From contig CAIFEB010000001.1 of the NCBI GenBank assembly GCA_903789375.1, positions 1-64,000 on the forward strand: a stretch of 64,000 nt of DNA. Reading direction: 5' to 3'. The position numbers and the translations under genes are program-made. The notes beneath the pieces are model-generated. The model worked only from the letters and a program-made list of their open reading frames with translations, made no database searches and was not told the DNA's origin. The stretch is from an uncultured Eggerthellaceae bacterium. GTDB taxonomy: Bacteria; Actinomycetota; Coriobacteriia; Coriobacteriales; Eggerthellaceae. This document shows, in pieces, positions 11,375-29,514 of the stretch (its first letter is position 1; every line of letters starts with the position of its first letter).

Positions 11375-11416
11375 GGCGAACCTCCTTGGTGAATCGATCG
11401 TTCCGACCGTCGAGGG

Positions 11417-13387: not shown

Positions 13388-13640
13388 CATCAATGACGCA
13401 TGGATTGATGAAGTCCTGGTGAGAGGAAAACGCTTAAGGGATTCCATTGAGCGACCAGCCAAACAAAGGCGAAGATCCTGGATATCCAGGGACTTCGAAT
13501 TGCGTAGCTAGTTGATGATGTCAAAAAGCGGTGAATCTGTTTCCTGTCGCCATCATCCTGCATGGGTTCGACATTTTCGGGTTCTTGGATTGGCCTCTGC
13601 CATAGCGGCCTTCATGCGCGTGAGGGCCGCGGGCGGCATC

Positions 13641-13877
13641 TTATTGCCAGACGCCCAGCAATTCCACGCAACATGCCCCGGTGACCCTCTTATCCCGGTA
13701 TGCGCCTTCAACGATGCTCTCAGCCTCGTACTTGTTGAGGGGTTCTACTTCAGAAATGATTTCCTGACCCGCAGGGTCGCAGGTCACAGTCAGGTCGACA
13801 TCAAAATCAGGGATGACGACGCTCCATCTTGTCGGATCTTTCTGGCTGCGTGGAAGGGCCTGCGCATGGGCGGCGAA
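13641..13877 (-). pseudogene. Fragment of an unidentified island gene
   Basis: A minus-strand frame open from about 13877 to TAA 13641-13643 without a start codon. It reads like real protein: ALPRSQKDPTRWSVVIPDFD, then EVEPLNKYEAESIVEGAY and a C-terminal ELLGVWQ. It probably belonged to an element that has since decayed. Family not recognised. Confidence 0.35.
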
Positions 13878-13938
13878 TCACCGGCGTGGCCTCCGAGAGG
13901 GGCGAAGCTCGCGCCCGTTGTCCGAGCGCCAAGCGAGA

Positions 13939-13967
13939 GGCTCCCCGGCTGCGCCCGCCGGGGAGCC
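13939..13967 (-). terminator. Strong GC hairpin after the excisionase remnant
   Basis: An 11-bp perfect stem GGCTCCCCGGC/GCCGGGGAGCC (13939-13949 with 13957-13967), just past the end of the leftward excisionase-like frame. There is no clear T run, so termination is plausible but not certain. Confidence 0.5.
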
Positions 13968-13975
13968 CCGTCCGG

Positions 13976-14098
13976 CTACGCGGTTTCCGACCGGACGAAC
14001 GAGTCGACGTCGCGCCGCGTGAAGCGGACGAGCCTGCCGATCCGCACGGCGGGCAGATCGCCGCTCCCGGCGAGCTTGTAGACCATGGACGAACGGGC
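13976..14098 (-). pseudogene. Excisionase-type HTH fragment
   Basis: The minus-strand frame contains ARSSMVYKLAGSGDLPAVRI and GRLVRFTRRDVDSFV, the C-terminal two-thirds of an excisionase-family (HTH_17) DNA-binding domain of about 65 residues. The N-terminal part that should precede it is replaced by unrelated sequence around 14100-14180, so the gene is broken. It is the likely xis of the older island whose edge lies just beyond. Confidence 0.55.
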
Positions 14099-14133
14099 AA
14101 AGAATAAAAGGCGCAGGTCAACAGGTATATAAG

Positions 14134-14164
14134 AACGGCTCCGAAAGCGATATTCGGAGCCGTT
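14134..14164. terminator. 11-bp perfect hairpin beside the attachment site
   Basis: AACGGCTCCGA (14134-14144) pairs perfectly with TCGGAGCCGTT (14154-14164). It lies between the broken excisionase and the attachment core at 14290. Direction and role are uncertain; it could insulate the island edge. Confidence 0.45.
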
Positions 14165-14289
14165 CGGTGCGTGATTATTCACCTGAAGTTGCTGGTGGCT
14201 TTTGGGTGTTTACGTACCAGATTGGACTTCATGAACCCTGTGGAGCATATTGAGAGCGTGCACAAAACCGCAGGTAAATCCCAAATTTA

Positions 14290-14401
14290 CTCCCACTCAG
14301 TGCAAGCTTTGGTTGATATAGTTGCTTTCAGTTATTTGGAATTCATCCACTTTACCCAGCTGGTTGCAGCTTCACGTGATTTGGGAACCAAATGGGAACC
14401 A
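14290..14401. other. Attachment site (outer edge of the hsd island): core plus arm repeats
   Basis: The core ACTCCCACTCAG (14290-14300) matches the guaA end over TCCCACTCA. Exactly 90 bp after the start of that core (14291), TTGGGAACCA begins, giving TGGGAACCA at 14382-14390 and again at 14393-14401, an 11-bp period. The spacing is identical to that of the site at 10579. The stop of the next gene lies 20 bp away. Confidence 0.65.
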
Positions 14402-14420
14402 CTCATTACGCTAGATGTCT

Positions 14421-15518
14421 TTAACGCTCTAAGGAATATTGCTCACTTAGTAGATTCGGCACATCGGGCAGAGCCGATATTGAATAATCATCGATTGCAG
14501 CATGGATGGCATTCGCCGCATCTCCTTTGAGGCTATGAAATAACATGATGTAGCATGAATTCATACGAGCAAGTTGCTTTAAAGAAGCATCTTCAAGAAC
14601 CGACTCGCTAAGATGCTTGCTAATTAGAACATCTTCTGAATACGTGAAAATAATCTTAACGATAGCTTCTAGCGCTTCATCGTCAGCAAGCAATCTCAAC
14701 TGCCTGGCAAAAGCCCTGTATCTCTTCGCGCGGCTGCTAGCAAACAGCAAAACTACTGTATTCCCCTTGGATGGGAGAACGCAGACGTCCAATGGCTCCA
14801 TTTTATATTTTGGGTTCCGGTTGTAGACGTTATTAATCACCGAGCCCTCGAAATCCGAGATGAGACAGACTCTCTGCTGAAAGGCAAACGGAACGACGTA
14901 TGGCAACACCTTGTAGTACAGAATGCTGTACACATTGGATGGCTTGGCCGATCCTCCTACACGCAACGCAGTTTGCAGCGCTTTCTCGTCCTCCGCAACG
15001 TCTATCGAACGGACATCCATCATCGCGTCGTACATTGCCGGAGATTTATCTCCGAGTACTTTTTGCGACCCAAGCTCCTGCTTCGCCTTGGATATCTCTC
15101 GGAGCAAGTTCTTCGCAGCGATTTGCCCCATCACCTGGGACGAAGGTTCCTGCAGCAACGTTTCCGGCGTTTCATACAACTTGAAAAACTCAGTGTCGCA
15201 CTTACGGCATATTCTTTTAAAAGTTAGTGCCTGGGCGATTCCAACTTCCGTGTCAAGTAAATTCCCGCCCACTAGCGCAGCGTTGGTCAGCAGCTTTCCC
15301 TCTACGGCAATCTCTCGCAAACAGTACTGAGGGATTGTGTGGGAGTTGCAGAACTTTGGATTCTCTTTTCCACAAATGCAGCAAGTATCTGGCTTTGCAC
15401 TTTTCTTTGCGGCTTTGTCGAGATCGGACCTGAACTTCCTGTATCGGATCAGCGTCTCTTCCGGCGCATGAATCGCATTGAAATCCTGTCTGAATGAGGC
15501 TTCATCTTGATCTTCCAT
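14421..15518 (-). CDS. Low-GC Cys/His-rich protein, HNH-nuclease-like zinc site
   Basis: 365 residues, visibly richer in A+T than everything around it. Residues about 46-105 hold CCICGKENPKFCNSHTIPQY and, about 35 residues later, CRKCDTEFF. This C-x2-C...SHxIP...C-x2-C pattern is like the zinc-bound HNH fold of some restriction and homing nucleases, though a full catalytic His-Asn-His triad is not proven. The remainder is helical with no known domain. It lies 13 bp downstream of the double-HTH regulator in one leftward operon. Function unknown; an element-defence or exclusion role is plausible. Confidence 0.6.
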   Translation of the reverse strand: MEDQDEASFRQDFNAIHAPEETLIRYRKFRSDLDKAAKKSAKPDTCCICGKENPKFCNSHTIPQYCLREIAVEGKLLTNAALVGGNLLDTEVGIAQALTFKRICRKCDTEFFKLYETPETLLQEPSSQVMGQIAAKNLLREISKAKQELGSQKVLGDKSPAMYDAMMDVRSIDVAEDEKALQTALRVGGSAKPSNVYSILYYKVLPYVVPFAFQQRVCLISDFEGSVINNVYNRNPKYKMEPLDVCVLPSKGNTVVLLFASSRAKRYRAFARQLRLLADDEALEAIVKIIFTYSEDVLISKHLSESVLEDASLKQLARMNSCYIMLFHSLKGDAANAIHAAIDDYSISALPDVPNLLSEQYSLER

Positions 15519-15531
15519 ATATCCTCACTGT

Positions 15532-16527
15532 CTACTCCTCGTAATGGTCCTGCCAGTACTGGTACGCGTCCGAATCGCCGTTCTCCTGGAAGTCGACGCG
15601 GGCGTAGAACCAATCACCGAAGAGCTTGTCGAGGCTCGGGCGCTTCGGCAAGCCCCCCATGTACATGTCGTTGCGGGTGCATAGCACGATAGCGTCGCCG
15701 ATTCTTCTCGGCGCCAGGTAGTAGATATGCGCCGCCTCCATCAGGAAGTGGAACGCCTCGTTTGGATTGGAGATGCCGAAGTCCGTGAGCGTCTCGACCG
15801 GCACGCCGAGGGCCTTCGCGGTCGCCGCGCGCTGCTCCTCGTTCGGGGCGCGTTTCCCCTGTTCGTAGGCGCGGACGGTGAAAACGCTCGCGCCCGACTT
15901 CTTCGCCAGCTGTCCCTGCGTCATCCCAGCAGCCTTCCTGAGCCGCTTCACGGTCTCGCCGAGCCTCGGCGGACGGTTGGGATAGTCCCCCTCGTCGAAC
16001 GGCGCATCGTAGCCCAGCTCGAACCTCTTCAGGGCCTCCGTGGAGCGATCCGCAGCCGCCTCCCGCTTCGCGCGCTCCTCTTCGCTCAGGCCGTCCTCGC
16101 AGGCAGCGAGGATGGCGTCCCCAATCTCGTCGCTCGCGTCTGCCCACTGTGCCATGGCGTACTCGATGTAGCCGCCGTCGCCCCTGACGCCGAGCACGCC
16201 GTCCCCGAAGTACGGGACGAGGTCGTACGCGCCGGAAATCTGGAACAGGAGCTGCGCGACCACCGCGACCTCGTCGGTTCCCTCCTCGAAAAGGCGGTCC
16301 CTCAGCTGCACCGCGAGAAACGCCGCCTCAGACGCGCCGAGCGCTCTGGCCAGCTTCTCGACCGTCTCCTCTCTGGCGAGGCTCTTGGCCTGCTCGTAAT
16401 TCTGAATCAGCCCGACGTCGACGCCCGATTCCTGGGCCAGCTCGTCCTGCGTCATACCCCCGTTGAGCTCGCGCAGCGCCTTCAACATTCCGGCGAAACC
16501 CCGTCTGCTCGGTTTGGGACTTCCCAT
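15532..16527 (-). CDS. Regulator with two XRE helix-turn-helix domains
   Basis: 331 residues from ATG 16527 behind TAGGAGCGAT. Two separate XRE domains are visible: one at about 10-62 (MTQDELAQESGVDVGLIQNY) and one at about 180-240 (MTQGQLAKKSGASVFTVRAY), linked by an acidic helical region. The C-terminal about 90 residues are of unknown type. It is divergent from excisionase and integrase across a gap with repeated ATCGTATTA motifs, the layout of a lysogeny-type repressor. Two DNA-binding domains in one chain could bridge operators at both promoters. Downstream in the same transcript is the low-GC Cys/His-rich gene. Confidence 0.75.
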   Translation of the reverse strand: MGSPKPSRRGFAGMLKALRELNGGMTQDELAQESGVDVGLIQNYEQAKSLAREETVEKLARALGASEAAFLAVQLRDRLFEEGTDEVAVVAQLLFQISGAYDLVPYFGDGVLGVRGDGGYIEYAMAQWADASDEIGDAILAACEDGLSEEERAKREAAADRSTEALKRFELGYDAPFDEGDYPNRPPRLGETVKRLRKAAGMTQGQLAKKSGASVFTVRAYEQGKRAPNEEQRAATAKALGVPVETLTDFGISNPNEAFHFLMEAAHIYYLAPRRIGDAIVLCTRNDMYMGGLPKRPSLDKLFGDWFYARVDFQENGDSDAYQYWQDHYEE

Positions 16528-16602
16528 ATCGCTCCTATGCCCGTTTCCGAGCCCGCCTGTCACGTGCGGGCGCTTTCAATCACGAATTTTAACCTGGTAA
16601 AA

Positions 16603-16677
16603 ATCGTATTACAACATGTTGACTCGTAAAATACGTACTACTACACTGCAGGTCAGATAGTCGTAAACATCGTATTA
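16603..16677. promoter_or_regulatory. Operator cluster between repressor and excisionase
   Basis: ATCGTATTA is directly repeated at 16603-16611 and 16669-16677, and a small palindrome CGTA-AAA-TACG lies at 16625-16635 between them. The arrangement brackets the predicted rightward promoter at 16619-16647, which suits repression by the divergent double-HTH protein. Confidence 0.5.
16619..16647 (+). promoter_or_regulatory. Promoter of the excisionase-integrase operon
   Basis: TTGACT (16619-16624), 17 bp, TACACT (16642-16647): close to the vegetative consensus. Transcription would start about 16654, some 38 bases before the excisionase start. Confidence 0.6.
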
Positions 16678-16691
16678 GTTAGGAGATGCAC

Positions 16692-16901
16692 ATGGACGAC
16701 TACAGGCTTGTCGGCAAGGACGAGGTCCGCCAGATCCTCGGAGGGTGCTCCGACCAGATGGCCTACCGGGTAATCCGCCAGCTCAACCGGGAGCTCGAGG
16801 AGAGGGGCGTCATCACCGTGCAGGGGAAGGTGAGCCGCAAGTACCTCATCGAGCGCTTCTTCGGCGCAGCGGACGAGGAGGGGGACGGGCAGTGTCAGTG
16901 A
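16692..16901 (+). CDS. Excisionase-like small DNA-binding protein
   Basis: 69 residues. ATG 16692 is preferred to ATG 16686 because the AGGAG ribosome binding site directly abuts the earlier one. The sequence LVGKDEVRQILGGCSDQMAY then RVIRQLNRELEERGVITVQG resembles the short helix-turn-helix excisionase/regulators found immediately before integrases in Gram-positive elements. It overlaps the integrase start by 10 bp. By analogy it should control recombination direction by bending DNA at the attachment site. Confidence 0.65.
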   Translation: MDDYRLVGKDEVRQILGGCSDQMAYRVIRQLNRELEERGVITVQGKVSRKYLIERFFGAADEEGDGQCQ

Positions 16902-17959
16902 AGCAGGACGGGAACGGGACCTGGGAGGTGAGCGCCTGGTACCGCGACTGGCAGGGAAACCGCAAGCGGAAGCACAAGCGCGGGTTCGCCACCAAGCGCG
17001 AGGCCAAGGCGTGGGAGCGATTGTTCCTCGCCCGACAGGAGGGCGCCCCCGACATGACGATGGCCGACTTCTTCGAGATCTACCGCGACGACCGCATGCC
17101 CCATCTGAAGCTCAACACCTGGAGGAGCAAGGAGCAGGTGATCGTCGGCAAGATTCTGCCGTACTTCGGAGAGAAGAAGCTCGACGAGATCACCCCGGCG
17201 GACATCCTCAAGTGGCAGTCGCTGCTCCTCAACCACCGCGACAAGCACGGCAAGGGCTATTCGGACACCTATCTCCGAACAGTGAGCACCCAGCTCTCGA
17301 GCATGTTCAACCACGCCGTGCGCTACTACGGCCTCCCGGCCAACCCCGTGGCCAAGGCGGGCAAGATGGGCAGCGCCAAGGGCGGCGAGATGCGCTTCTG
17401 GACGAAGGACGAGTACGAGCGCTTCTCTCGGGAGGTCATGGACAAGCCGCTCTCCTATCTCGCGTTCGAGGTCCTCTACTGGACCGGAATCCGCGAGGGC
17501 GAGCTTTTGGCGCTGGCGCCCGACGACTTCGACCTGTCGAAGGGGACGCTCTCCATCACCAAGTCCTACCAGCGCATCGACGGCGAGGACGTCGTCACGT
17601 GCCCGAAGACGCCCAAGTCGAACCGGGTGATAGCCATGCCAGACTTCCTGACGGAGGAGGTCGCTGACTACCTCCGCCTCAACGGGACTAGCCCCGACGA
17701 GCGCATGTTCAAGGTCTCGAAGTCGTACCTCTACCACGAGATGGAGCGCGGCAGCAGGGCCGCCGGCGTGAAGCGCATCCGCGTGCACGACCTGCGCCAC
17801 AGCCACGTGTCGCTTCTGATCGAGCTGGGGTTCAACCCGCTCGCCATAGCCGACCGCATGGGGCACGAGAGCGTGGACATCACCCTACGCTACGCGCACC
17901 TGTTCCCGCACGCGCAGGGGCAGATGGCCTCAGCGCTCCAGAAGGAAAGGGGGATATGA
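16892..17959 (+). CDS. int: Tyrosine site-specific integrase
   Basis: 355 residues from GTG 16892 (GAGGAGGGGGACGGGCA upstream; a GTG at 16898 is also possible). It has an N-terminal AP2-like arm-binding domain (WEVSAWYRDWQGNRKRKHKR), a central SAM-like domain (TWRSKEQVIVGKILPYFGEK) and a C-terminal catalytic domain with Arg in TGIREGE, HDLRHSH (His-x2-Arg), the second His in MGHESVDIT and the nucleophile Tyr in RYAHL. All catalytic positions are present. The arm-binding domain would recognise the TGGGAACCA repeats and the catalytic domain the guaA core. Overlaps both neighbours. Confidence 0.9.
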   Translation: MSVKQDGNGTWEVSAWYRDWQGNRKRKHKRGFATKREAKAWERLFLARQEGAPDMTMADFFEIYRDDRMPHLKLNTWRSKEQVIVGKILPYFGEKKLDEITPADILKWQSLLLNHRDKHGKGYSDTYLRTVSTQLSSMFNHAVRYYGLPANPVAKAGKMGSAKGGEMRFWTKDEYERFSREVMDKPLSYLAFEVLYWTGIREGELLALAPDDFDLSKGTLSITKSYQRIDGEDVVTCPKTPKSNRVIAMPDFLTEEVADYLRLNGTSPDERMFKVSKSYLYHEMERGSRAAGVKRIRVHDLRHSHVSLLIELGFNPLAIADRMGHESVDITLRYAHLFPHAQGQMASALQKERGI

Positions 17960-18330
17960 GCATGTCGGAGAAGCTATTGGACCCGCAGGGCCGGCAGCGC
18001 AGCAAGACCATCTCGTTCAGGATGTCGCCCGAGGAGGCCGAGGTCCTCGACAGCCTGGTCGCCGCGAGCGGGATGACCAAGCAGGACTACATCACCAGCT
18101 GCCTCATCGACCACCGGATCACCGTGATTCCCCACACGTGCACCTACAAGGGCCTCTACGACGAGATGGGGCGCGTCTACCGGGAGCTGAGGCGCATCAA
18201 GCGCGACGGCCACGTGAGCGCCGACCTCGAGCGGATCATCGGGGCGCTCGCGGAGGAGTTCTCCGGGCTCGGGGGCGAGCTGTCCGAGGTGGAGAAGGAA
18301 GACGCCGCCGTCCGCGCGCTGAGACGCTGA
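17956..18330 (+). CDS. MobC-like ribbon-helix-helix protein
   Basis: 124 residues, overlapping the integrase stop by 4 bp (ATGA). The N-terminal half (RSKTISFRMSPEEAEVLDSL, then SGMTKQDYITSCLIDHRITV) matches the ribbon-helix-helix region of MobC-type relaxosome accessory proteins. The C-terminal half is an acidic helix (GGELSEVEKEDAAV). MobC proteins help a relaxase open DNA at oriT; since no relaxase is coded here, it would have to work with a helper element's relaxase, or it serves as a regulator. Confidence 0.6.
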   Translation: MSMSEKLLDPQGRQRSKTISFRMSPEEAEVLDSLVAASGMTKQDYITSCLIDHRITVIPHTCTYKGLYDEMGRVYRELRRIKRDGHVSADLERIIGALAEEFSGLGGELSEVEKEDAAVRALRR

Positions 18331-18425
18331 CGGCGGCGCCAGGTAAACGGGCGCCGGGAGTCCCTGGAAAAGATTGCCCGGCGCCCAGGAAGGCCAGTCT
18401 ATCACTGGTGGAAAGGAGGGCATCG

Positions 18426-18644
18426 ATGCCTTCTCGCAACAGCTACTTCAACAAGCTGGTAGACAGGAACAGGTCGATGGCGGAGCACGGCTTCGACCAT
18501 TTCCCCGACGAAGGGGAGCTGTTCGACTACCTGATAGAGACGAACGACAAGGTCGACCTCCTGGCGGAAAGCCTGGGGGTGCGGATCGAGAAGGACGCGC
18601 GCGGGCGGCTCCGCGCCGCGCCCGGAAGGGAGTACATGCGATGA
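18426..18644 (+). CDS. Hypothetical 72-residue island protein
   Basis: ATG 18426 follows GGAAAGGAGGGCATCG, a strong ribosome binding site. The product is charged and helical (NSYFNKLVDRNRSMAEHGFD, then ELFDYLIETNDKVDLLAESL). No recognised domain. It overlaps the RepA-like gene by 4 bp (ATGA), so it is likely an accessory factor made with it. Small genes in this position in mobilizable elements often modulate replication. Confidence 0.6.
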   Translation: MPSRNSYFNKLVDRNRSMAEHGFDHFPDEGELFDYLIETNDKVDLLAESLGVRIEKDARGRLRAAPGREYMR

Positions 18645-19612
18645 GGAAGCTGGAGACGGTGGATGCGCAGTGGCTTATCCAGCAGCCCTTCACGAGCCCC
18701 GCATGGGTGATCGAGGACCTGCTCACCGCCGGGCTTTCGCTCCTGGTCGGCTCGCCTAAGTCGGGAAAGAGCTGGATGGCCCTGAAGATGGCCCTCTGCG
18801 TGAGCACGGGAACCCCGTTCTGGGACCTGGAGACGCACGAGTGCGACGTCCTCTACCTCTGCCTCGAGGACACCAAGAGCCGCGTGCAGCAGAGGCTCTG
18901 GAAGCTCACCGACGAGGCGAGCCCGAGGCTCCACATCGCCACCGCTGCCGACAAGATCACGGGGGACCTCATCCCCCAGCTGCAGGACTTCGCAGAAGAG
19001 CACCCTGACACACGCATGGTCATCGTCGACACGCTGCAGATGGCGAGGAAGGCGTCGGGCGACAATGCCTACGCCGCCGACTACAGCGACATGAACGCTC
19101 TGAAGAGGTTCGCCGACGAGCGCGGCATCGCTGTGCTGTGCATCCACCACAGCCGCAAGATGGGCGATTCGGACGTCTTCAACACGGTGAGCGGGACCAA
19201 CGGCATCACGGGCGCCGCCGACTGCACCATGGTGCTCAGCAACCTCAACCGCAGCGCGCACAGGGCGACGCTCTCCGTCACCGGAAGGGACGTCGAGTTC
19301 CAGGAGTACAAAATCCGGATGAACGACTGCGTATGGGAGCTGATCGAGAAGACCAGCAGGGAGGAACTCGAGGAACGCGAGGTGCCCGACGACGTCCTGC
19401 GGGTCCTGGACTTCATGATGACGCGCCCCATCGACTGGCAGGGAACGACCACGGAGCTCTACACGCAGGTCGGCCTGGAGACCGTGAGCGTGCCGGCCTT
19501 CGGCAAGCACCTCGCCCAGAACAGGGACTTCTTGGAGGACCGGGGAATCGCGTTCGAGAGAACGCGCACCCGTGAGGGAAGCATCATCAGCCTCTGCAGG
19601 ACCGACGGATGA
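18641..19612 (+). CDS. RepA-like AAA/RecA-fold ATPase
   Basis: 323 residues. Walker A GSPKSGKS (37-44), Walker B MVIVDTLQ and sensor region CIHHSRK are typical of the RepA/DnaB-like hexameric helicase family (AAA_25), found in plasmids, integrative elements and phage satellites. The C-terminal about 80 residues look like a winged helix (YTQVGLETVSVPAFGKHLAQ). It probably unwinds the excised element for replication, using the repeat region immediately downstream as origin. No primase domain is present. Confidence 0.75.
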   Translation: MRKLETVDAQWLIQQPFTSPAWVIEDLLTAGLSLLVGSPKSGKSWMALKMALCVSTGTPFWDLETHECDVLYLCLEDTKSRVQQRLWKLTDEASPRLHIATAADKITGDLIPQLQDFAEEHPDTRMVIVDTLQMARKASGDNAYAADYSDMNALKRFADERGIAVLCIHHSRKMGDSDVFNTVSGTNGITGAADCTMVLSNLNRSAHRATLSVTGRDVEFQEYKIRMNDCVWELIEKTSREELEEREVPDDVLRVLDFMMTRPIDWQGTTTELYTQVGLETVSVPAFGKHLAQNRDFLEDRGIAFERTRTREGSIISLCRTDG

Positions 19613-20110: not shown

Positions 20111-20206
20111 GCCCCTGGGATCGAATCTCAGCTGCGAGCTAATGCCCATACATGAAACTTTATGTAAAATGTGAGCATGTCTAAACCGCCCGAAAGGTGA
20201 TCAGCC

Positions 20207-20392
20207 ATGGCCATCATCCGACCCGTGTCCGACCTGCAGCGCAAGGTCGGCGAGCTCACCCGGCTCGCCAAGGAGACGAAAGAGCCCATATACCTCACCA
20301 AGAACGGCGCCGAGCACCTTGTGCTCATCGACTTCGGCGAGTTCGAGCGCCTGGCGAAGCTCGCCGGAAGAAGCGAGGCGAGGCAGCCATGA
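20207..20392 (+). CDS. Orphan Phd/YefM-type antitoxin
   Basis: 61 residues from ATG 20207 (GAAAGGTGATCAGCC upstream). IRPVSDLQRKVGEL and KEPIYLTKNGAEHLVLIDFG are the N-terminal DNA-binding fold of Phd/YefM antitoxins. The usual Doc, RelE or YoeB toxin gene is missing: the stop overlaps the start of hsdR by 4 bp (ATGA). The C-terminal toxin-neutralising tail is shortened to about ten residues. This suggests it works here as a repressor of the restriction operon, like a control protein, rather than as an antitoxin. Confidence 0.7.
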   Translation: MAIIRPVSDLQRKVGELTRLAKETKEPIYLTKNGAEHLVLIDFGEFERLAKLAGRSEARQP

Positions 20393-22755
20393 GCGGAACC
20401 TACGACTACTCATTCGTGAAGATGAACGAGGAGGACACGAAGCTGAAGCTCATCACGCCCGCCGTCGAGAAGGCCGGGTGGAGCAAGATGAGGCAGATGT
20501 TCTGCGAGTACTCCTACACCGACGGGGAGATCATCGTCCGGGGCAAGATGACGACGCGCGGCAAGCGCAAGAAGGTCGACTACCTCCTCATGCACCAGCG
20601 CGACGTCCCCATCGCGGTCATCGAGGCCAAGGACACGCAGCACACGGTCGGGGCGGGCATGCAGCAGGGCATTGGTTACGCCGCGGACCTGCGCGTCCCT
20701 TTCGTCTACAGCTCGAACGGCAAGGGCTTCCTCGAGCACGACATGATGACGGGGGCCGAGAGGCAGCTCCCCATGGACCGGTTCCCGAGCCCGTCCGAGC
20801 TGTGGGCGCGTTACTCGAGGCAGGACGGTCTCACCGGCGAGGGCGAGGAGATTGTCGAGGCCCCCTACTACCACGACTACGGCTCCCTGACGCCGCGCTA
20901 CTACCAGCGAAACGCCGTCAACGAGGCGATCCGGGCAATCGCGCACGGCCAGCGCCGCATCCTGCTCGTCATGGCGACGGGCACCGGAAAGACGTTCACC
21001 GCGTTCCAGCTGGTGCACCGCCTCCGCGAGAGCGGCGCGGTGCGCAAGGTGCTCTACCTCGCAGACCGCAACGTCCTCGTCGACCAGACCATCACCGGCG
21101 ACTTCAAGCCCCTGGAGAAGGTGACCACGAAGGTAAAGGGCCGCACGCTCGACAGCGCCTACGAGGTGTACTTCAGCCTCTACCAGCAGCTCGTGGGCGA
21201 GGACGGCGAGGAGATATTCCGCGCCTTCGACCCGTCGTTCTTCGACCTCGTCATCGTGGACGAGTGCCACCGGGGCTCGGCCAAGGCGGACTCTGCCTGG
21301 CGCAAGATCCTCGAGTACTTCGGCGGCGCCATACAGATCGGCATGACCGCCACCCCCAAGGAAACCGAGGAGGTCTCCACCATCGACTACTTCGGCGAGC
21401 CGGTCTACACCTACAGCCTCAAGCAGGGCATCGAGGACGGCTTCCTCGCCCCCTACAAGGTCATCCGGCCGAAGCTCGACATCGACGTCTACGGCTGGCG
21501 GCCGGCGAAGGGCCAGCTCGACGACAACGGGGAGCCAATCGAGGACCGCGTGTACTCCATCACCGACTTCGACCGCGACATCGTCGTGAGGGAGCGCACG
21601 GAGACCGTCGCCGCCAAGGTCACGGAGTTCCTGAAGGGCACCGACCGCTACGCCAAGACCATCGTGTTCTGCGTCGACATCGACCACGCGGAGCGCATGC
21701 GGCAGGCGCTGGTCAACTGCAACAAGGACATCGTCAGGGACCACCCGACCTACGTCATGCGCATCACCGGCGACAGCGCCGAGGGCAAGGCGCAGCTAGA
21801 CAACTTCATGGACCCGGACGAGAAGCACCCGACCATCGTCACCACCTCGAAGCTGCTCACCACGGGGGTCAACTGCAAGACCTGCAAGGTCATCGTCCTC
21901 GACAACCTCTTCGGCGAGCAGGGCATGACCGAGTTCAAGCAGATCATCGGTCGCGGTACCCGCATCAAGGAGGACTACGGGAAGCTGTACTTCACCATCC
22001 TCGACTTCCGCAACGCGAGCCGGCTCTTCGCCGACCCCGCCTTCGACGGCGAGCCGGTGCAGATCTACGAGCCGCCCGAGGAGGCCCCCATCGTCCCGCC
22101 TGACGAGCCGGACAATTGGCAGGAGCCCGAGGGGGCCTCGCCGGACTTCAGCCCCGAGGGAGATGGCGGCTCCGACGACGCCGGCGGCGACCGCGTCAAG
22201 TACTACGTGCACGGCGTCCCGGTCACCGTGGTCTCGGAGCGCGTCGAGTACTACTCGGACGACGGCGGACTGGTCACCGAGAGCCTCAAGGACTACACGC
22301 GCAGGAACATCCTCGGCCAGTACGACTCCCTCGACCACTTCCTCAAGGCGTGGAACGAGGGGGACCGCAAGCAGGCCATCATCGACGCCCTGCGCGACGA
22401 GGGCGTCTTCCTGGATGCGCTGCGCGAGGAATCTGGCCAGGAGCAGATGAGCGACTTCGACCTCATCTGCCACATCGCCTACGACCAGAAGCCCCTCACG
22501 CGCTCCGAGCGCGCGAACAACGTGAAAAAGAAGGGCTACCTCTACGAGTACAACGAGGTGGCGCGGCGCGTGCTCGATACGCTGCTGGACAAATACGCCA
22601 ACTCAAACCTCGTCGACCTCGCGGACACCCATATCCTCGATCTCGAGGAGTTCCAGGAGTTCGGCAGCCCCATGCGCATCGTGAAGGCGTTCGGTGGCAA
22701 GAAGAAGTACCTCGAGGCCGTGCACGAGCTCGAGCGAGAGCTCTACTCCGCCTAG
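20389..22755 (+). CDS. hsdR: Type I restriction enzyme, R (translocase/nuclease) subunit
   Basis: 788 residues. The N-terminal PD-(D/E)xK nuclease has Asp64, then IEAK (78-81) and QxxxY (93-97). Walker A ATGTGKT (196-202), DECH box (291-294), the TATP motif and QIIGRGTR near the end of the second RecA fold make up the SF2 translocase. The C-terminal about 180 residues bind the methylase. HsdR pulls DNA towards the HsdMS complex and cuts unmethylated DNA at a distance. All motifs are intact. Translation is coupled to the Phd gene, so the antitoxin level is tied to nuclease synthesis. Confidence 0.92.
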   Translation: MSGTYDYSFVKMNEEDTKLKLITPAVEKAGWSKMRQMFCEYSYTDGEIIVRGKMTTRGKRKKVDYLLMHQRDVPIAVIEAKDTQHTVGAGMQQGIGYAADLRVPFVYSSNGKGFLEHDMMTGAERQLPMDRFPSPSELWARYSRQDGLTGEGEEIVEAPYYHDYGSLTPRYYQRNAVNEAIRAIAHGQRRILLVMATGTGKTFTAFQLVHRLRESGAVRKVLYLADRNVLVDQTITGDFKPLEKVTTKVKGRTLDSAYEVYFSLYQQLVGEDGEEIFRAFDPSFFDLVIVDECHRGSAKADSAWRKILEYFGGAIQIGMTATPKETEEVSTIDYFGEPVYTYSLKQGIEDGFLAPYKVIRPKLDIDVYGWRPAKGQLDDNGEPIEDRVYSITDFDRDIVVRERTETVAAKVTEFLKGTDRYAKTIVFCVDIDHAERMRQALVNCNKDIVRDHPTYVMRITGDSAEGKAQLDNFMDPDEKHPTIVTTSKLLTTGVNCKTCKVIVLDNLFGEQGMTEFKQIIGRGTRIKEDYGKLYFTILDFRNASRLFADPAFDGEPVQIYEPPEEAPIVPPDEPDNWQEPEGASPDFSPEGDGGSDDAGGDRVKYYVHGVPVTVVSERVEYYSDDGGLVTESLKDYTRRNILGQYDSLDHFLKAWNEGDRKQAIIDALRDEGVFLDALREESGQEQMSDFDLICHIAYDQKPLTRSERANNVKKKGYLYEYNEVARRVLDTLLDKYANSNLVDLADTHILDLEEFQEFGSPMRIVKAFGGKKKYLEAVHELERELYSA

Positions 22756-22776
22756 GAATCGATAAGGAGAATTTGA

Positions 22777-24255
22777 ATGGCACTTGGCACCCTGGTCAAG
22801 ACCCTGCAGAACATCATGCGCAAGGACGCCGGCATCAACGGCGACGCGCAGCGCATCGAGCAGATGACGTGGATGTTCTTCCTCAAGGTCTACGACGCCA
22901 AGGAGGAGGAGTGGGAGTTTCACGACGACTCCTACGAATCCGTGATTCCCGAAGAGCTGCGCTGGCACAGCTGGGCGGTGGATTCCAAGGACGGAAAGGC
23001 GCCCACCGGCCCCGAGCTCCTCGACTTCGTGAACAACAGGCTGTTCCCCGGTCTGGCTAGTCTCGACCTGCCAGAGGGAGCTCCGCTGTCCCAGGTCGTC
23101 GTGAGGCAGGCGTTCACGGACGCCAACAACTACATGAAGGACGGCGTCCTGCTGCGCCAGGTGGTCAACGCGATCGACGACGCGGTCGACTTCACGGAGT
23201 ACAAGGAGCGCCACGCCTTCGGCGAGATCTACGAGACGATCCTCAAGGACCTGCAGAGCGCCGGCAACGCGGGCGAGTTCTACACGCCCCGCGCCGTCAC
23301 CGACTTCATGGCCAAGATGCTCGACCCCAAGCTGGGCGAGAGCGTCGCGGACTTCGCGTGCGGAACCGGCGGCTTTCTCACCTCGGCGCTCAAGCTCCTC
23401 GAGGCCCAGGTGGAGACGCCCGCCGACCGCGAGGTCTACTCCCAGAGCGTCTACGGCATGGAGAAGAAGCAGCTGCCCTACCTTCTGTGCGTCACCAACA
23501 TGCTGCTCCACGACATCGACCAGCCCAAGATCTTCCACGGAAACTCGCTCGACCGCGACGTACGCGAGTACCGGCACGAGCCCGACGGCCTCTTCGACGT
23601 GGTGCTCATGAACCCGCCCTACGGGGGAAGCGAGAACGACGCCATCAAGAACAACTTCCCCGTGGCGCTGCGCAGCTCCGAGACCGCGGACCTCTTCCTC
23701 GCGCTCATCCTCTACCGGCTGAAGGAGCACGGCCGCGCGGCGGTCATCATCCCCGACGGCTTCCTTTTCGGCACCGACGGGGCGAAGCTCGAGATCAAGC
23801 GGCGCCTGTTGGAAGAGGCGAACCTGCACACCGTCGTGCGCATGCCCCAGAGCGTGTTCGCACCCTACACCTCCATCACCACCAACATCCTGTTCTTCGA
23901 GAACAACGGGCCCTCCGAAGGCGTGTGGTTCTACCGCATGGACATGCCGGAAGGCTACAAGCACTTCTCCAAGACCAAGCCCATCAGGCTGGAGCACTTC
24001 GACCCCGTAATCGAGTGGTGGAACGACCGCAAGAAAATCGAGGAGGATGGCCACCCCAAGGCACATTTCTACACTCCAGAGGAGCTGAAGGAACGCGGCT
24101 ACAATTTCGACCTTTGCGGCTACCCGCATGACGAAGAGGAGATTCTGCCGCCCGACGAGCTCATCAAGAGCTACAAGGCGGAGCGCGAGCGACTCGACGC
24201 GGAAATCGACGCCAAGCTAGGCGAGATTTGCAGCATCCTCGGAATCGAGCTGTAG
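22777..24255 (+). CDS. hsdM: Type I modification methylase, M subunit
   Basis: 492 residues. N-terminal helical HsdM domain (LVKTLQNIMRKDAGINGDAQ) followed by an N6-adenine methyltransferase with AdoMet motif FACGTGGF (193-200) and catalytic NPPYGG (279-284). It forms M2S with HsdS and methylates the two half-sites of the recognition sequence, protecting host DNA. Good ribosome binding site (ATAAGGAGAATTTGA). Separated from hsdS by one base, a normal operon junction. Confidence 0.93.
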   Translation: MALGTLVKTLQNIMRKDAGINGDAQRIEQMTWMFFLKVYDAKEEEWEFHDDSYESVIPEELRWHSWAVDSKDGKAPTGPELLDFVNNRLFPGLASLDLPEGAPLSQVVVRQAFTDANNYMKDGVLLRQVVNAIDDAVDFTEYKERHAFGEIYETILKDLQSAGNAGEFYTPRAVTDFMAKMLDPKLGESVADFACGTGGFLTSALKLLEAQVETPADREVYSQSVYGMEKKQLPYLLCVTNMLLHDIDQPKIFHGNSLDRDVREYRHEPDGLFDVVLMNPPYGGSENDAIKNNFPVALRSSETADLFLALILYRLKEHGRAAVIIPDGFLFGTDGAKLEIKRRLLEEANLHTVVRMPQSVFAPYTSITTNILFFENNGPSEGVWFYRMDMPEGYKHFSKTKPIRLEHFDPVIEWWNDRKKIEEDGHPKAHFYTPEELKERGYNFDLCGYPHDEEEILPPDELIKSYKAERERLDAEIDAKLGEICSILGIEL

Positions 24256-24256
24256 C

Positions 24257-25852
24257 ATGAAGGCACAGGACTTGAAGAACTCCATCCTCCAACTGGCCGT
24301 GCAGGGCAAGCTGGTGCCGCAGGATCCCTCCGACGAGCCTGCGAACGAGCTGCTCGAGCGCATCCGCGAGGAATGCGCGGAGCTCATCGAGCAGAAGAAG
24401 ATCAAGAAGCCCAAGGGCGGAGAGTCGGTCATCTACCGGGGTTCCGATGGGTCCCGCTATGAGAAGCGCGTGGACGCGAAGGGCCACGAGAGTGAGCCGA
24501 TCTGCATCGACGACGAGATCCCGTTCGAGATTCCCGAGGGCTGGGAATGGGCCCGGCTGTCCTCTGTCTGCGTTAAGCTTACCGATGGGTCGCATAATCC
24601 TCCGCCAAAAGCGGTCAATGGTTATCCCGTGATAAGCGCGATGAGCATCGATGGCCGATCAATCAACCTGAACCGCATTAGTCGCTTTGCCGATCGGTCT
24701 GGCTTCGAAAAAGAGAATCCCCGAACGAGGATCAAACGCGGCGACATAATTCTAGGCATTATCGGCGGGTCAATCGGCAATGTTGCGATTTTCGATTACG
24801 ATGAAGCTGTAATTGCTCAACGAAGCGTCGCCATAATCGATTGCGGCGCTCTTAACGAGTATGTCTCCTTCGCGCTGGAGAGCCCCCTTTTCTTTGGATA
24901 CTACAAAAATGCTGCAGGTACAGCCCAGGGCGGAATATATCTTGGGGCATTGGGAGACATGCTTGTACCCATCCCGCCCCTTACTGAACAGCGCCGCATC
25001 GTCGCCAAGGTCGACGAGCTCATGCCGCTGGTCGAGGAGTACGGCGAGCTCGAGGACGCCCGCGAGGCCCTGGACGCCGCGCTGCCCGACCGCCTGCGCA
25101 AATCCGTGCTGCAGCTTGCTGTCGAGGGTAAGCTGGTGCCCCAGGACCCCTCCGACGAGCCCGCAAGTGAGCTGCTCGGGCGCATCCGGAAGGAGCGCGC
25201 CGAGCTCATCGAACAGAGGAAAATCAGGAGGCCCAAGGGTGGCGAGTCGGTCATCTACCGCAAAGGCGGGAGCTGGTACGAGCGCCGCGGCAAATCCGAA
25301 CCCGTCTGCATCGACGACGAGATCCCCTTCGACATCCCGGAGAGCTGGGAGTGGTGCAGGCTATGCGGCCTTGCGGCATTTTCAGGTGGGAAGACCCCAT
25401 CCACTGATGACAAATCCAATTACGAGGAAAACGGCATTCTATGGGTTACTTCCAAAGACATGAAGCGTGATTACATCGACAGCACTCTTATCACGCTATC
25501 TGAGAAGGGGGCCTCTGAACTCACTAGATACAAACCCGGTACGATTTTAATGGTCACGCGGAGCGGGATTTTGAGGCGCATGCTGCCAGTAGCGATGCTG
25601 AAGAGGAGCGCTACGGTTAACCAGGACCAGAAGGCAATCTGTCCCTTTGACTACCGTCTTAGCGAATGGCTACTGCGCTTCTTCAAAGCGAGCGATAGTT
25701 ATATAAGGTCAAACTTTTCAAAAGCGGGAACAACAGTTGAAAGTGTTGTCTTTGACAAGGTCAAGTCTATGCCAATTCCCATCCCTCCCCTCGAAGAGCA
25801 GAAACGCATCGTCGAAAGAGTCGACCAGATAATGAAACTGATAGGAGCCTAG
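24257..25852 (+). CDS. hsdS: Type I specificity subunit with two target-recognition domains
   Basis: 531 residues. Two copies of a conserved segment (LQLAVQGKLVPQDPSDEPAN near 11 and LQLAVEGKLVPQDPSDEPAS near 285, each running to SWEWxRL or GWEWxRL) frame two different recognition domains of about 150 residues (roughly 100-245 and 370-510), each closing with IPPLxEQxRIV. The recognition domains are clearly lower in GC than the repeats, as expected from domain swapping. The subunit defines a bipartite target; the target cannot be read from sequence. No frameshift. Confidence 0.9.
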   Translation: MKAQDLKNSILQLAVQGKLVPQDPSDEPANELLERIREECAELIEQKKIKKPKGGESVIYRGSDGSRYEKRVDAKGHESEPICIDDEIPFEIPEGWEWARLSSVCVKLTDGSHNPPPKAVNGYPVISAMSIDGRSINLNRISRFADRSGFEKENPRTRIKRGDIILGIIGGSIGNVAIFDYDEAVIAQRSVAIIDCGALNEYVSFALESPLFFGYYKNAAGTAQGGIYLGALGDMLVPIPPLTEQRRIVAKVDELMPLVEEYGELEDAREALDAALPDRLRKSVLQLAVEGKLVPQDPSDEPASELLGRIRKERAELIEQRKIRRPKGGESVIYRKGGSWYERRGKSEPVCIDDEIPFDIPESWEWCRLCGLAAFSGGKTPSTDDKSNYEENGILWVTSKDMKRDYIDSTLITLSEKGASELTRYKPGTILMVTRSGILRRMLPVAMLKRSATVNQDQKAICPFDYRLSEWLLRFFKASDSYIRSNFSKAGTTVESVVFDKVKSMPIPIPPLEEQKRIVERVDQIMKLIGA

Positions 25853-25855: not shown

Positions 25856-27634
25856 ATGGGCAAGGAACTGTTCGACAACATCCCCAGCAAGGTCGAGGAC
25901 CTACTCCGCGCCGTGGAGCTGGGGAAAATCGGCCTCCCCGATCTGCAGAGGCCCTTTGTCTGGCCCGACAGCAAGGTGAGGAACCTCCTCGACTCGATGC
26001 TGAAGGGCTATCCCATCGGCTACATCATGCTCTGGTCGTCGCCGGACGAATACGGCAACACCAAGCAGATCGGCGGCAACGAGAAGACCTACAAGGAGCC
26101 CGACGACCTGGTCATCGACGGCCAGCAGAGACTCACGGCCCTGCTGGCCGCGCTCCATGGGACAAGGGTCCGGGACAAGAACTACCGGGAGCGTCCGATA
26201 AGAATCTCGTTCAACCCGCTCACCAGGGAGTTCGCTGTCTGGACTCAGGCGTTCGAGAGGAACACGGAGTGGATCAGCTCCGTGAGCTCGGTGTTCGAGG
26301 CGGACAGGGACCACTCCGTGTCGAAGTTCCGCAAGGCCTTCATCAGGCAGGCCAACGAGGGGCGGGAGAGGAACGGCAGGCACGCTCTGACCGACGAGGA
26401 GGAGGACCTGATCGAGGAGAACCTCAACGACCTCCTCAACCTGGGGATATACACGCTCCCAACGTTGAAGATCAACTCGAAAGCCGACGAGGAGGACGTG
26501 GCGGAGATCTTCGTGCGCGTGAACTCCGGCGGGACCAAGCTCACCGAGAAGAACTTCATCGAGACCCTGCTGGCGGTGTTCGACAACGACGTTCACGCGC
26601 GCATAGACAGGTTCTGCGCGGAGTCCCGCGTGCCGAAGGACGGGACCGCCTACAACCAGATCATCGAAGTCGACCCGTCGCACCTAATCAGGATTGCCGT
26701 CGGCGTCGGGTTCAGGCGCGCCCGTCTCAAGTACGCCTACATGCTCCTGAGGGGCAAGGATCTGAAGACCGGGGCCACCTCGGCCAAGACGCGCGAGGAG
26801 AACCTCGGAAAGTTCAAGGCCGCCCTCGACCTCGCCCTTAACCTTAACAACTGGCACTCCTTTCTCAACCTGTTCGGCAAGGCGGGATACCTAAGAGGGA
26901 GCATCGTCGCCTCGACCAACGCGGTGGTATTCAGCTACGTCCTGTACCTCATCGGCAAGTACGACTACAAAGTGCCGCCGTTCGAGCTGAACAAGATCAT
27001 CACCAAGTGGATCTTCATGGCCACCATAACCGGTTTCTACACCGGATCGACCGAGTCTGAGGTCGAGAAGCAGTTCGCCGATCTGCGGGAGGTGACAACG
27101 GCGGAAGGCTTCGTGTCCTACCTGGAATCCGCCATCGCGACCAGGTTCACGGACGACTTCTTCGCATACACCCTGCCGAGCAGCCTCGAGGGTTCGTCGG
27201 CAAACTCGCCGTCGTGGTTCGGCTACGTCGCCTCGCTCATCGTTCTGGGCACGCCTATGCTGTTCAGCACGACGCCGCTTGCCCAGTACTTCGCCATCGG
27301 CACGAGCGGGAAGAAGAACGCCATCGACAAGCACCATATCTTCCCGAAGAATTACCTGACGAAGATAGGCTACGACAACGACCGCGAAAGAAACCAGATA
27401 GCCAACTTCACATACCTCGACTACAACACCAACATCGAGATCGGCGACAAGGCCCCAGCCGAATACGTCTCCGCTTACAGGCAAAAGCTCGGCGAAGAGG
27501 GATATGCGAAATCCTGCAGGGACAATGCACTCCCCCTCGATTTCGAGAACCTCGGATACCCGGACTTCCTCGCTCAAAGAAGGACGCTCATGGCAGGCGT
27601 CGTGAAGAAGGCATACGAAAAGCTTTGTGAGTAA
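25856..27634 (+). CDS. Full-length DUF262-HNH protein (GmrSD-like)
   Basis: 592 residues. DUF262 domain: LPDLQRPFVW (27-36) and IDGQQRLT (87-94). Residues about 490-525 carry DKHHIFPKNYL and, about 20 residues on, an Asn in a YLDYNTNIEIGDKAP segment, an HNH/DUF1524-type nuclease. Such proteins are NTP-dependent type IV enzymes that cut modified DNA. It starts 3 bp after hsdS, so it is made with the type I enzyme: one module cuts unmodified DNA and the other would cut modified phage DNA. It is the full-length counterpart of the truncated DUF262 genes at 1.7-3.8 kb but only distantly similar. Confidence 0.8.
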   Translation: MGKELFDNIPSKVEDLLRAVELGKIGLPDLQRPFVWPDSKVRNLLDSMLKGYPIGYIMLWSSPDEYGNTKQIGGNEKTYKEPDDLVIDGQQRLTALLAALHGTRVRDKNYRERPIRISFNPLTREFAVWTQAFERNTEWISSVSSVFEADRDHSVSKFRKAFIRQANEGRERNGRHALTDEEEDLIEENLNDLLNLGIYTLPTLKINSKADEEDVAEIFVRVNSGGTKLTEKNFIETLLAVFDNDVHARIDRFCAESRVPKDGTAYNQIIEVDPSHLIRIAVGVGFRRARLKYAYMLLRGKDLKTGATSAKTREENLGKFKAALDLALNLNNWHSFLNLFGKAGYLRGSIVASTNAVVFSYVLYLIGKYDYKVPPFELNKIITKWIFMATITGFYTGSTESEVEKQFADLREVTTAEGFVSYLESAIATRFTDDFFAYTLPSSLEGSSANSPSWFGYVASLIVLGTPMLFSTTPLAQYFAIGTSGKKNAIDKHHIFPKNYLTKIGYDNDRERNQIANFTYLDYNTNIEIGDKAPAEYVSAYRQKLGEEGYAKSCRDNALPLDFENLGYPDFLAQRRTLMAGVVKKAYEKLCE

Positions 27635-27659: not shown

Positions 27660-27688
27660 TGGTTCCCAGTTTCCATAGCTGGTTCCCA
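27660..27688. other. Arm-site pair at the guaA-proximal island end
   Basis: TGGTTCCCA occurs at 27660-27668 and 27680-27688, the inverted form of TGGGAACCA seen at 14382-14401 and 10682-10690. Opposite orientation at opposite ends, inside the cores, is what paired integrase arm sites look like. Confidence 0.6.
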
Positions 27689-27762
27689 AACGGTTCCGAA
27701 ATAGGCCAAAGAGCCGGGAGCACCATAAGGACGCGGGCGCACGCACGCGCACCCAAACAAGG

Positions 27763-27921: not shown

Positions 27922-29514
27922 TCATTCCCACTCAATCGTCGCGGGCGGCTTGGACGTGATGTCGTACGCCACGCGGTTCACGCCGGGAACCTCGGCCACG
28001 ATGCGGCTCGAGATGCGAGCGAGCACCTCGTAGGGGAGTTTCGCCCAGTCGGCCGTCATAGCGTCGGAGCTCTCAACGGCGCGCACGATGATGGGCCGCG
28101 CGTATGTGCGCTCGTCGCCCATGACGCCCACGCTTCTGATGTCGGGCAGCACGGCGAAGTACTGCCAGCAGCTGTGGGCGCTGTTGCGCTCGCCGGTCTC
28201 CTCGAACAGCTTCGCGTTGTACGCGTCAAGCTCCTCGCGCACGATGGCGTCGGCGTTCTTCAGGATGCCAAGCTTTTCGGGCGTCACCGATCCGATGATG
28301 CGAATGGCAAGCCCCGGGCCGGGGAAGGGCTGGCGGTAGACGATGTGGTCGGGCAGGCCGAGCGCCGTGCCAAGCGCGCGCACCTCGTCCTTGAAGAAGT
28401 GGTCGAGCGGCTCGATCAAATCGAAGCTCACGCCGTCGGGGAACGGGATCAGGTTGTGATGGCTCTTGATGGTGGATGCCTTGCCGCCGGTCTTGCGCGC
28501 GCCCGACTCGATGATGTCGGGGTAGATGGTGCCCTGGGCCAGGTACTTCACGCCGTCGAGCTTCTGCGCCACGGCGAAGAACTCCTTCCAGAACTGCGTG
28601 CCGATGATCTGGCGCTTGCGCTCGGGCTCCGTCACGCCGTCGAGCAGCTTCGCGTAGCGCTCCGCGGCGTGCACGTGGATGAAGTCGACGTCGAACTGCT
28701 TGGTGAATACCTCTTCGACCTGCTCGGGCTCGTCTTTGCGCAGCATGCCGTGGTTCACGAACACGCAGGTCACCTGCTTGCCGATGGCGCGGCTCATCAA
28801 CGCCGCGACGACGCTCGAATCAACGCCGCCCGAAAGCGCCAAGATCACGCGGTCGTCTCCGACCTTCTGGCGGATGGCGGACACCATGCGCTCGACTAGG
28901 TTGTCCATCGACCAGTCAGCCTCAAGACCGCAGATCTTGAACAGGAAGTTGGACAGCATGTCGTTTCCGTTGGGGGTGTGGCGCACCTCGGGGTGGAACT
29001 GCGTGGCGTAGAGCTTGCGCTCGGGGCATTCCATCGAGGCAACGGGGCACACGTCGGTATGCGAAGTGACGACGAATCCCGCGGGAACCTCGGACACGGC
29101 GTCGCGATGGCTCATCCACACGGTCTGCTCGTCGGGCGTGCCGTCGAGCAGCTGGCTTTCGCCTTGGCGGGTGAGCGGGGCGGGGCCGTATTCGCCCTTC
29201 TCGGTGTGGCCGACGGTGCCGCCGAGAGTGACGGCCATGATCTGCTGGCCGTAACAGAACCCGAGCACCGGCACGCCCAACTCGAGCACACCCGGGTCGA
29301 TCTTCGGGGCGTCCTCTGCGTACACGCTGGCCGGGCCGCCTGAAAGGATGACGGCCGACGGCTTCAGCGCGGCGAGCTCGTCGGCCGAGATGTCGCAGGG
29401 GACGATCTCCGAATAGACGTGCAGGTCGCGCACGCGACGTGCGATGAGCTGGCCGTACTGGGCGCCGAAGTCCAAGACGACGACCTTCTGGTCGGAAGTG
29501 GCGGTGGTGTTCAC
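27922..29514 (-). CDS. guaA: GMP synthase (glutamine-hydrolysing)
   Basis: 530 residues from GTG 29514, chosen because AAAGGGA lies 7 bp upstream; ATG 29538 has no ribosome binding site. Converts XMP, ATP and glutamine to GMP. The class I glutamine amidotransferase domain has Cys87 (FCYGQQ) and His174/Glu176 (FHPEV); the ATP-pyrophosphatase loop is LSGGVDSS (about 227-234), followed by the dimerisation domain ending TIEWE. Length is normal. Its last codons are the attachment site for the islands to the left. Confidence 0.97.
   Translation of the reverse strand: MNTTATSDQKVVVLDFGAQYGQLIARRVRDLHVYSEIVPCDISADELAALKPSAVILSGGPASVYAEDAPKIDPGVLELGVPVLGFCYGQQIMAVTLGGTVGHTEKGEYGPAPLTRQGESQLLDGTPDEQTVWMSHRDAVSEVPAGFVVTSHTDVCPVASMECPERKLYATQFHPEVRHTPNGNDMLSNFLFKICGLEADWSMDNLVERMVSAIRQKVGDDRVILALSGGVDSSVVAALMSRAIGKQVTCVFVNHGMLRKDEPEQVEEVFTKQFDVDFIHVHAAERYAKLLDGVTEPERKRQIIGTQFWKEFFAVAQKLDGVKYLAQGTIYPDIIESGARKTGGKASTIKSHHNLIPFPDGVSFDLIEPLDHFFKDEVRALGTALGLPDHIVYRQPFPGPGLAIRIIGSVTPEKLGILKNADAIVREELDAYNAKLFEETGERNSAHSCWQYFAVLPDIRSVGVMGDERTYARPIIVRAVESSDAMTADWAKLPYEVLARISSRIVAEVPGVNRVAYDITSKPPATIEWE
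27924..27940. other. Attachment core in the guaA 3' end
   Basis: ATTCCCACTCAATCGTC encodes the last codons of GuaA (TIEWE) on the minus strand and is repeated, with changes, at 7244, 10579 and 14290. The gene stays intact because the island restores the terminal codons. Confidence 0.65.

Follow-up and report, generated by a model that had tools for sequence, protein, structure and literature searches.

The 3' end of guaA in an uncultured Eggerthellaceae bacterium (assembly GCA_903789375.1) is occupied by a genomic island of ~13.6 kb, with attachment (att) cores at 14289 and 27924 of the stretch that we analysed, namely positions 1 to 64,000 of contig CAIFEB010000001.1 (the window). Near one end the island carries a gene for a 365-residue protein with a Cys/His cluster, called here the zinc-site protein, which starts 13 nt after the stop codon of a gene for a regulator with two XRE-type helix-turn-helix (HTH) domains; an excisionase-like gene (xis) and a tyrosine integrase gene (int) lie on the strand opposite to the regulator. 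The initial annotation of this DNA, made from the letters alone, already contained a double-XRE regulator with an AT-rich partner, and both descriptions hold: the best XRE/HTH_3 stretches of the regulator are residues 27-79 and 200-259, and the zinc gene has a GC content of 47.5%, compared to 65.4% in the regulator gene and 60.3% in the island. The same annotation proposed that the partner is protective cargo placed with the repressor. Since sister islands fill the same position with known or candidate defence genes, this proposal gains support, and we consider the zinc-site protein to be probably (at a probability of about 0.63) the product of a stand-alone anti-phage gene, expressed together with the repressor of the island.

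The slot behind the regulator

The position in question, or slot, begins at the regulator stop codon and ends at an arm repeat, which lies 1-19 nt beyond the stop codon of the cargo gene. These borders are seen in the window and in four other loci, i.e., L010 (genome G363, Collinsella), L011 (G097, an Eggerthella metagenome-assembled genome, or MAG), L043 (G352) and L044 (G038). The arm repeat has 0-3 mismatches in 18 positions in all five, its distance from the cargo stop being 1-6 nt in the four loci other than the window, and the best att match follows at +100 to +118 nt from that stop. Five bounded slots hold three unrelated cargo genes; L010 and L011 share one block and are therefore counted once, which leaves four independent cases. 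Besides the window, two other genera have the zinc gene in this slot. In L043 the slot holds a KAP NTPase of the candidate defence family PDC-S49 (PADLOC 3.3e-28), and in L044 an ApeA-like HEPN protein (Pfam 5.7e-5). At a further locus beside guaA, L046 (G044), an OLD-TOPRIM ATPase (Pfam 6.3e-10) and AbiD (PADLOC 1e-40) stand behind a truncated regulator, with no clear arm border. In this small sample, L046 apart, the same borders enclose different recognisable defence genes, as in a swappable hotspot.

The cargo gene is co-directional with the regulator and immediately downstream of it, with a gap of 13 nt in the window and in L043 and of 2 nt in L044, and it is AT-rich relative to the regulator in all three. 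G363 and G097 have in common a single 1389-bp block (95% identity) made of a C-terminal remnant of the regulator, an intact zinc gene, the arm and the att-like end; the link between the regulator and the zinc gene is therefore older than the window. The island in L043 has no match to the integrase, and at 7480-7720 the start region of xis enters, by eye, an HsdS-like frame; operators, regulator and cargo are kept. The slot is not described in the titles or abstracts of the few papers that a search on guaA islands in Eggerthella and on Coriobacteriia defence elements brought up, a search that did not extend to the zinc-site family itself.

The zinc-site protein and its family

Residues C46, C49, C57, H60, C104, C107 and D108 are invariant in every row of two family alignments (11 of 11 in A8, 10 of 10 in A2). 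The 11-row alignment, in which row L025 covers the N-terminal part only, has 20 invariant columns, and the invariant set includes K42, C46, C49, C57, S59, H60 and P63, followed by C104, C107, D108, F112, Y115 and E116. No significant match to the zinc-site protein was found in Pfam, PADLOC, NCBIfam or PHROG; weak matches were to the zinc-cluster family CxC5, in four of ten isolated domains (best 0.0006), and to phrog_26326, to which no function is assigned, in three of 11 members (best 2.9e-4). Of five AlphaFold models, a single one is of good quality (pLDDT, the predicted local distance difference test, of 80.3; 36-53 in the other four); in it, the metal-site region at the N-terminus is followed by a long helical hairpin (127-188) and then by a beta sheet accompanied by helices. 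A Foldseek search of PDB with this full model gave nothing convincing (best E 0.17), and the closest match in BFVD was an uncharacterised phage protein of 266 residues (E 1.5e-3, prob 1.00, TM 0.31). VIA-align produced a single Z above 5, confined to the helical hairpin, in a comparison that covers only the best 1000 chains of Foldseek, so that absence from it is uninformative. By sequence, the protein belongs to a family that is not catalogued and whose Cys/His site, of zinc type, is near the N-terminus; there being no named relatives and no convincing PDB fold match, its function has to be argued from position and distribution.

The initial annotation had seen an HNH-like zinc site here, and had suggested that structure prediction be used to look for a beta-beta-alpha-metal fold. 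The invariant Cys/His cluster stands; the HNH part goes no further than motif resemblance, with no significant family. The arrangement CxxC ... SHxxP ... CxxCD, which we take to resemble the treble-clef HNH layout, would suit an HNH-type DNA nuclease serving as a restriction-like effector, a role compatible with defence, and there are weak matches to HNH_5 (E=0.037, two of ten isolated domains) and to two PHROG HNH families (0.28-0.3, one of 11 members each). However, H60 is the only invariant histidine, in the 10 full-length rows as well as in all 11, with N58 nearly invariant and D108 placed after the second CxxC; neither the conserved H-N-H residues of the superfamily nor a profile match above cutoff was found. 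The full model likewise yielded no HNH match beyond one BFVD row (E 2.1, prob 0.06), and the model of the isolated zinc domain is of poor confidence (pLDDT 54). With nothing significant from Pfam (single protein, all members, isolated domain), from the PDB sequence profile, or from the full-model structure, we dropped the HNH assignment and regard a nuclease of this kind as rather unlikely.

The family is horizontally scattered, sporadic and solitary, and several of its loci are defence-rich. The zinc gene is present in 3 of 199 relatives and in 8 of 396 genomes of the class (the window's own included; the copy in G327 is split and that in G344 is a fragment), while a phylum sample of 396 genomes contained only the window's own copy. 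Further members come from Atopobiaceae MAGs, from an interrupted copy in Lentisphaerae, from Niallia, Paraclostridium and Lactococcus plasmids (12 records, five of which cover at least 80%), and from three phage contigs (L048, L049, L050), the same three loci being returned by a wider viral-contig profile. By eye, the gene in L048 has the lysis end on one side and a portal-type gene on the other; in L050 it is the last gene to one side of the stretch and runs against the direction of most phage genes. Searches of viral contigs and of genome contigs with the single protein, and a gene search of a phage record collection, gave no match for the zinc-site protein; in viral contigs, neither a six-row zinc-family profile nor a regulator profile matched.

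Across the loci read, the zinc gene has no constant partner. In G144 it is accompanied by two AbiE pairs, PDC-M36A and a CRISPR-like array of 33 copies; in G370 a type II methyltransferase is found near it together with two restriction enzymes, and in G097 PDC-S06 is a neighbour; in G363 a DNA-methylase-like ORF (open reading frame) was seen by eye ~9.5 kb away. The CRISPR-like array at 12572-15010 of L012 (a Coriobacteriia MAG) has 33 copies of a 36-nt repeat beginning with GTTTTCGTCCCC and lies ~3 kb from the zinc gene. In G327 the gene is split over two contig ends (the end of L024, ~10455, and the start of L016, ~99) that share a 26-nt inverted match, as if an insertion sequence had interrupted it. 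The window at 5516-7253 and L010 at 12735-17430, where the DNA adjoins the zinc gene of Collinsella phocaeensis, share blocks of 90-96% identity; in Collinsella phocaeensis these are separated, by eye, by transposase-like ORFs, and they probably reflect recent transfer between families.

The switch and the island

Repeated words between the regulator and the excisionase-integrase pair had also been noted in the initial annotation, and they are present, in a longer form and in three operator-like copies instead of two. The word ATCGTATTA has exactly two copies (16603 and 16669) and is not unusual by itself: there are 4 matches with at most one mismatch, versus 2.8 expected, and 30 of 100 shuffles reach 4. 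The longer repeat GTAAAnnnCGTAnTA has three copies, at 16597, 16626 and 16663, with a score that was reached in none of 200 order-1 Markov simulations. This triad, with its 29- and 37-nt spacing, is kept in two other islands (regulators 56% identical). Two of its members fall within putative promoters (Table 1); 11 of 12 hexamer columns of the xis-int promoter and 9 of 12 of the regulator-cargo promoter are invariant across the three islands. Promoter-like matches by themselves are weak here, 3 being found versus 1.4 expected, but the hexamers are largely conserved, and the promoter pairs with the operators that they carry support a repressor-type switch. Divergent sigma70-like pairs with operators fit a self-regulating repressor that would keep excision off, and the position of the zinc gene, 13 nt past the regulator stop, suggests that the two are co-transcribed. 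The true regulator start is probably the ATG at 16527 (M13), which is common to relatives, and that of xis is probably 16692, ATGGACGAC being common to three elements.

Table 1. Features of the island and their coordinates in the window
Feature	Position	Strand	Remarks
Att core, island left end	14289..14301	+	ACTCCCACTCAGT, 2 mismatches vs guaA att core
Left terminal arm repeat	14384..14401	-	TGGTTCCCAnnTGGTTCC; begins 19 nt past cargo stop
Zinc-site protein, slot cargo	14421..15518	-	365 aa, Cys/His cluster
Double-XRE regulator	15532..16563	-	two XRE/HTH_3 domains
Putative regulator-cargo promoter	16586..16614	-	TTGTAA-17-TAAAAT; O1 overlaps spacer and -35 hexamer
Putative operator O1	16597..16611	+	GTAAAAATCGTATTA
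Putative xis-int promoter	16619..16647	+	TTGACT-17-TACACT; O2 inside 17-nt spacer
Putative operator O2	16626..16640	+	GTAAAATACGTACTA
Putative operator O3	16663..16677	+	GTAAACATCGTATTA
Excisionase, ICEBs1 Xis-like	16692..16901	+	NCBIfam model
Tyrosine integrase	16895..17959	+	Arm-DNA-bind_4, SAM-like_3, Phage_integrase; 79% identical to L044 integrase
NikA/MobC-like relaxosome protein	17956..18330	+	PF21983, 1.9e-13
AAA_25 RepA/helicase-like ATPase	18644..19612	+	80% identical in L044
Type I restriction-modification hsdR-hsdM-hsdS	20386..25852	+	
GmrSD_N (DUF262-type) protein, possible type IV restriction	25856..27634	+	
Right terminal arm repeat	27680..27697	+	
Att core within guaA 3' end	27924..27936	+	

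The guaA gene, which ends at 27922 in the ORF lists, includes ATTCCCACTCAAT in its 3' end. The 12-base TTCCCACTCAAT has two copies in the 2.43-Mb assembly, both within the window. Allowing at most 2 mismatches, the 13-base att core has four plus-strand copies in the window (7244, 10579, 14289 and 27924), compared to a mean of 0.25 in 40 simulations, and one minus-strand copy at 15334, within the zinc gene. The copy at 14289 is at the same distance from the cargo stop as its counterparts in L010, L043 and L044, and the 10-mer ACTCCCACTC is exact at the matching island end in the window, L043 and L044. Arm repeats are found at 10673, 14384 and 27680. Our reading is that the guaA locus consists of three tandem segments, 7244-10579, 10579-14289 and 14289-27936, the last of which contains the zinc gene, regulator, xis, integrase, NikA-like protein, AAA ATPase, type I restriction-modification and GmrSD-like genes.

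The first segment holds an AbiEi/AbiEii type IV toxin-antitoxin pair (window 8910-10552; PADLOC 3.9e-67 and 7e-85); in Eggerthella lenta, according to PMC13060105, AbiE is the sole defence system that belongs to the core. The second has a left end of the island type (att 10579, arm 10673) and, by eye, nitroreductase-, alpha/beta-hydrolase- and TetR-like genes, with no match to the island integrase or to the XRE regulator. Between the AAA ATPase and hsdR, at 19780-19976, there are three 19-nt direct repeats AGCAAGCTACCTATTATGT (74-100%), possibly iterons or an origin of transfer (oriT). Outside the island, the ORF at 1716-2729 has, by eye, a DUF262/GmrSD_N-like start (QYVIPVFQRTYSW) and may be another gene of this type.

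The switch had been likened to that of a prophage or phage satellite. The repressor-type switch stood, in the form of operators within promoter pairs in three islands; the prophage or satellite identity was rejected because no phage genes were recognised, structural, packaging and capsid-hijack genes having been looked for among the island proteins scanned (hsdM and hsdS by PADLOC only). What the island has is a guaA site, an integrase, a NikA-like mobilisation gene, an AAA ATPase and restriction-modification genes. As in integrative mobilisable elements, there are an own integrase and att sites; no relaxase was recognised among the island ORFs scanned (19612-20386 lies outside the scan), and the mobilisation side is represented by the NikA-like relaxosome protein only. 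According to PMC5704250, guaA is a known site of such elements, e.g., ATE-1 of Trueperella pyogenes, which the island resembles in its tyrosine integrase, guaA 3' end and mobilisation-type gene, and from which it differs by the conserved operator triad, the cargo slot and the lack of a recognised relaxase. The excisionase/integrase module is similar to that of ICEBs1, in that Xis matches the NCBIfam ICEBs1 Xis model, although the score of 40.5 bits is under the model cutoff of 100 and no conjugation genes were recognised in the island.

Alternative explanations and meaning

In the mechanism that we propose, the double-XRE regulator would bind O1-O3, shut the xis-int promoter and set its own level. 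The zinc gene would be read on the regulator transcript and thus be expressed for as long as the island stays integrated and silent. The slot is a replaceable position between the regulator stop codon and the terminal arm/att repeats, with known or candidate anti-phage genes as its recognisable occupants, and the zinc-site protein would most likely act alone, perhaps through abortive infection, to stop phages or rival elements that enter the cell. There are precedents for such an arrangement. Genes 43/44 of the Gordonia phage CarolAnn are cotranscribed with the repressor and have been likened to lambda cI-rexA-rexB (PMC6426606); there, defence or exclusion genes behind the repressor are on its transcript in the integrated state, as we suggest for the zinc gene. 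In contrast to both phages, the present case concerns a guaA island without recognised phage genes, a regulator with two XRE domains and an unrelated, uncatalogued zinc-site cargo. Swappable defence hotspots, one of them between cI and the integrase, are described for P2-like phages, P4-like satellites and other prophages in PMC9122126. Like these, the slot is a short region, flanked by conserved parts of the element, in which anti-phage genes can be exchanged; unlike them, it is bounded by the regulator stop codon and the arm/att repeats and takes one or two cargo genes. The island fits the same hotspot principle, in a different kind of element and with uncatalogued cargo.

Several observations weigh against an anti-phage role. 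The zinc-site family has no significant match to a defence model (best PADLOC E 0.019, in one of ten members). A profile of the regulator C-terminus matches 13 of the 395 genomes of the order, the window's own included, and only six of the 13 gave a readable slot cargo, the zinc gene in three and other genes in three. The remaining seven have a 143-residue single-HTH relative (G111), a full regulator (G390), a copy at a contig end (G400), remnants (G337 and G143) or short ORFs (G028 and G062). Slot att matches carry 2-4 mismatches in 14 bases. The ApeA-like match in L044 is just below the Pfam cutoff (24.0 vs 24.4 bits) and has no PADLOC counterpart, and in L046 the regulator is truncated, apparently by a frameshift, with an arm match only at 6 mismatches. 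A control scan, for which 10 ORFs were taken from outside the slots, returned 2 PADLOC matches, so that defence genes are not rare around these loci. In G363 the one neighbour scanned had no PADLOC match and the closest genes are, by eye, not defence-like, and the same visual verdict applies to the neighbours in G392.

The segment at 10579-14289 belongs with these points, as it shares the att/arm geometry and yet has, by eye, a nitroreductase-like and a hydrolase gene beside its arm; end structure by itself does not imply defence. It also speaks for the possibility that the zinc gene is a neutral passenger, an ordinary accessory gene that landed in the slot by chance. The gene nevertheless recurs in mobile elements and near defence genes and is under purifying selection, the ratio of non-synonymous to synonymous rates (dN/dS) being 0.106 in one pair (22 synonymous and 9 non-synonymous changes) and 0.262 in a second, in which changes are few (7 and 6), and we think a passenger unlikely. 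A two-gene operon in which an XRE protein comes first and the spacer is short would equally suit a toxin-antitoxin or addiction pair, the zinc-site protein being the toxin, the regulator the antitoxin, and the outcome that the island is kept in the cell; the G327 copy, split as if by an insertion sequence, can be read the same way. However, what G097 and G363 retain of the regulator is a remnant containing one stop, next to an intact partner; the same regulator family pairs with unrelated genes; and directly upstream of the plasmid and phage homologues that we read, no co-directional XRE gene is annotated or evident (unnamed neighbours there were not scanned). These points make an addiction pair quite unlikely. 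The location inside the island, adjoining the att end and the switch, could also point to a function in excision, integration or transfer of the element itself; this we hold to be very improbable, as L044 keeps xis, int, mobC and repA at 65-80% identity to those of the window with a different slot gene, and the plasmids and phage contigs that carry homologues have machinery unrelated to that of the island.

Returning to the reading of the zinc-site protein as an anti-phage protein, a broader version of it is that the family represents a new single-gene anti-phage system, with an architecture of metal site, helical hairpin and C-terminal beta sheet that is not yet matched in PDB, spread over Coriobacteriia, Firmicutes plasmids, phage contigs and a Lentisphaerae contig, and endowed with a dedicated repressor-coupled slot in the guaA islands of Coriobacteriia. 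We put this version forward tentatively, at somewhat less than even odds. If it is true, the repressor-coupled slot could be mined for further unknown defence genes. The few islands at hand already give a testable rule, namely that what stands between the regulator stop codon and the arm/att repeats is either an anti-phage gene, known or candidate, or a gene without a name. This provides a small and sharply bounded place to search for new ways of defence in a bacterial class to which gut bacteria belong, with the zinc gene as a specific first candidate and its invariant residues as targets for mutation.

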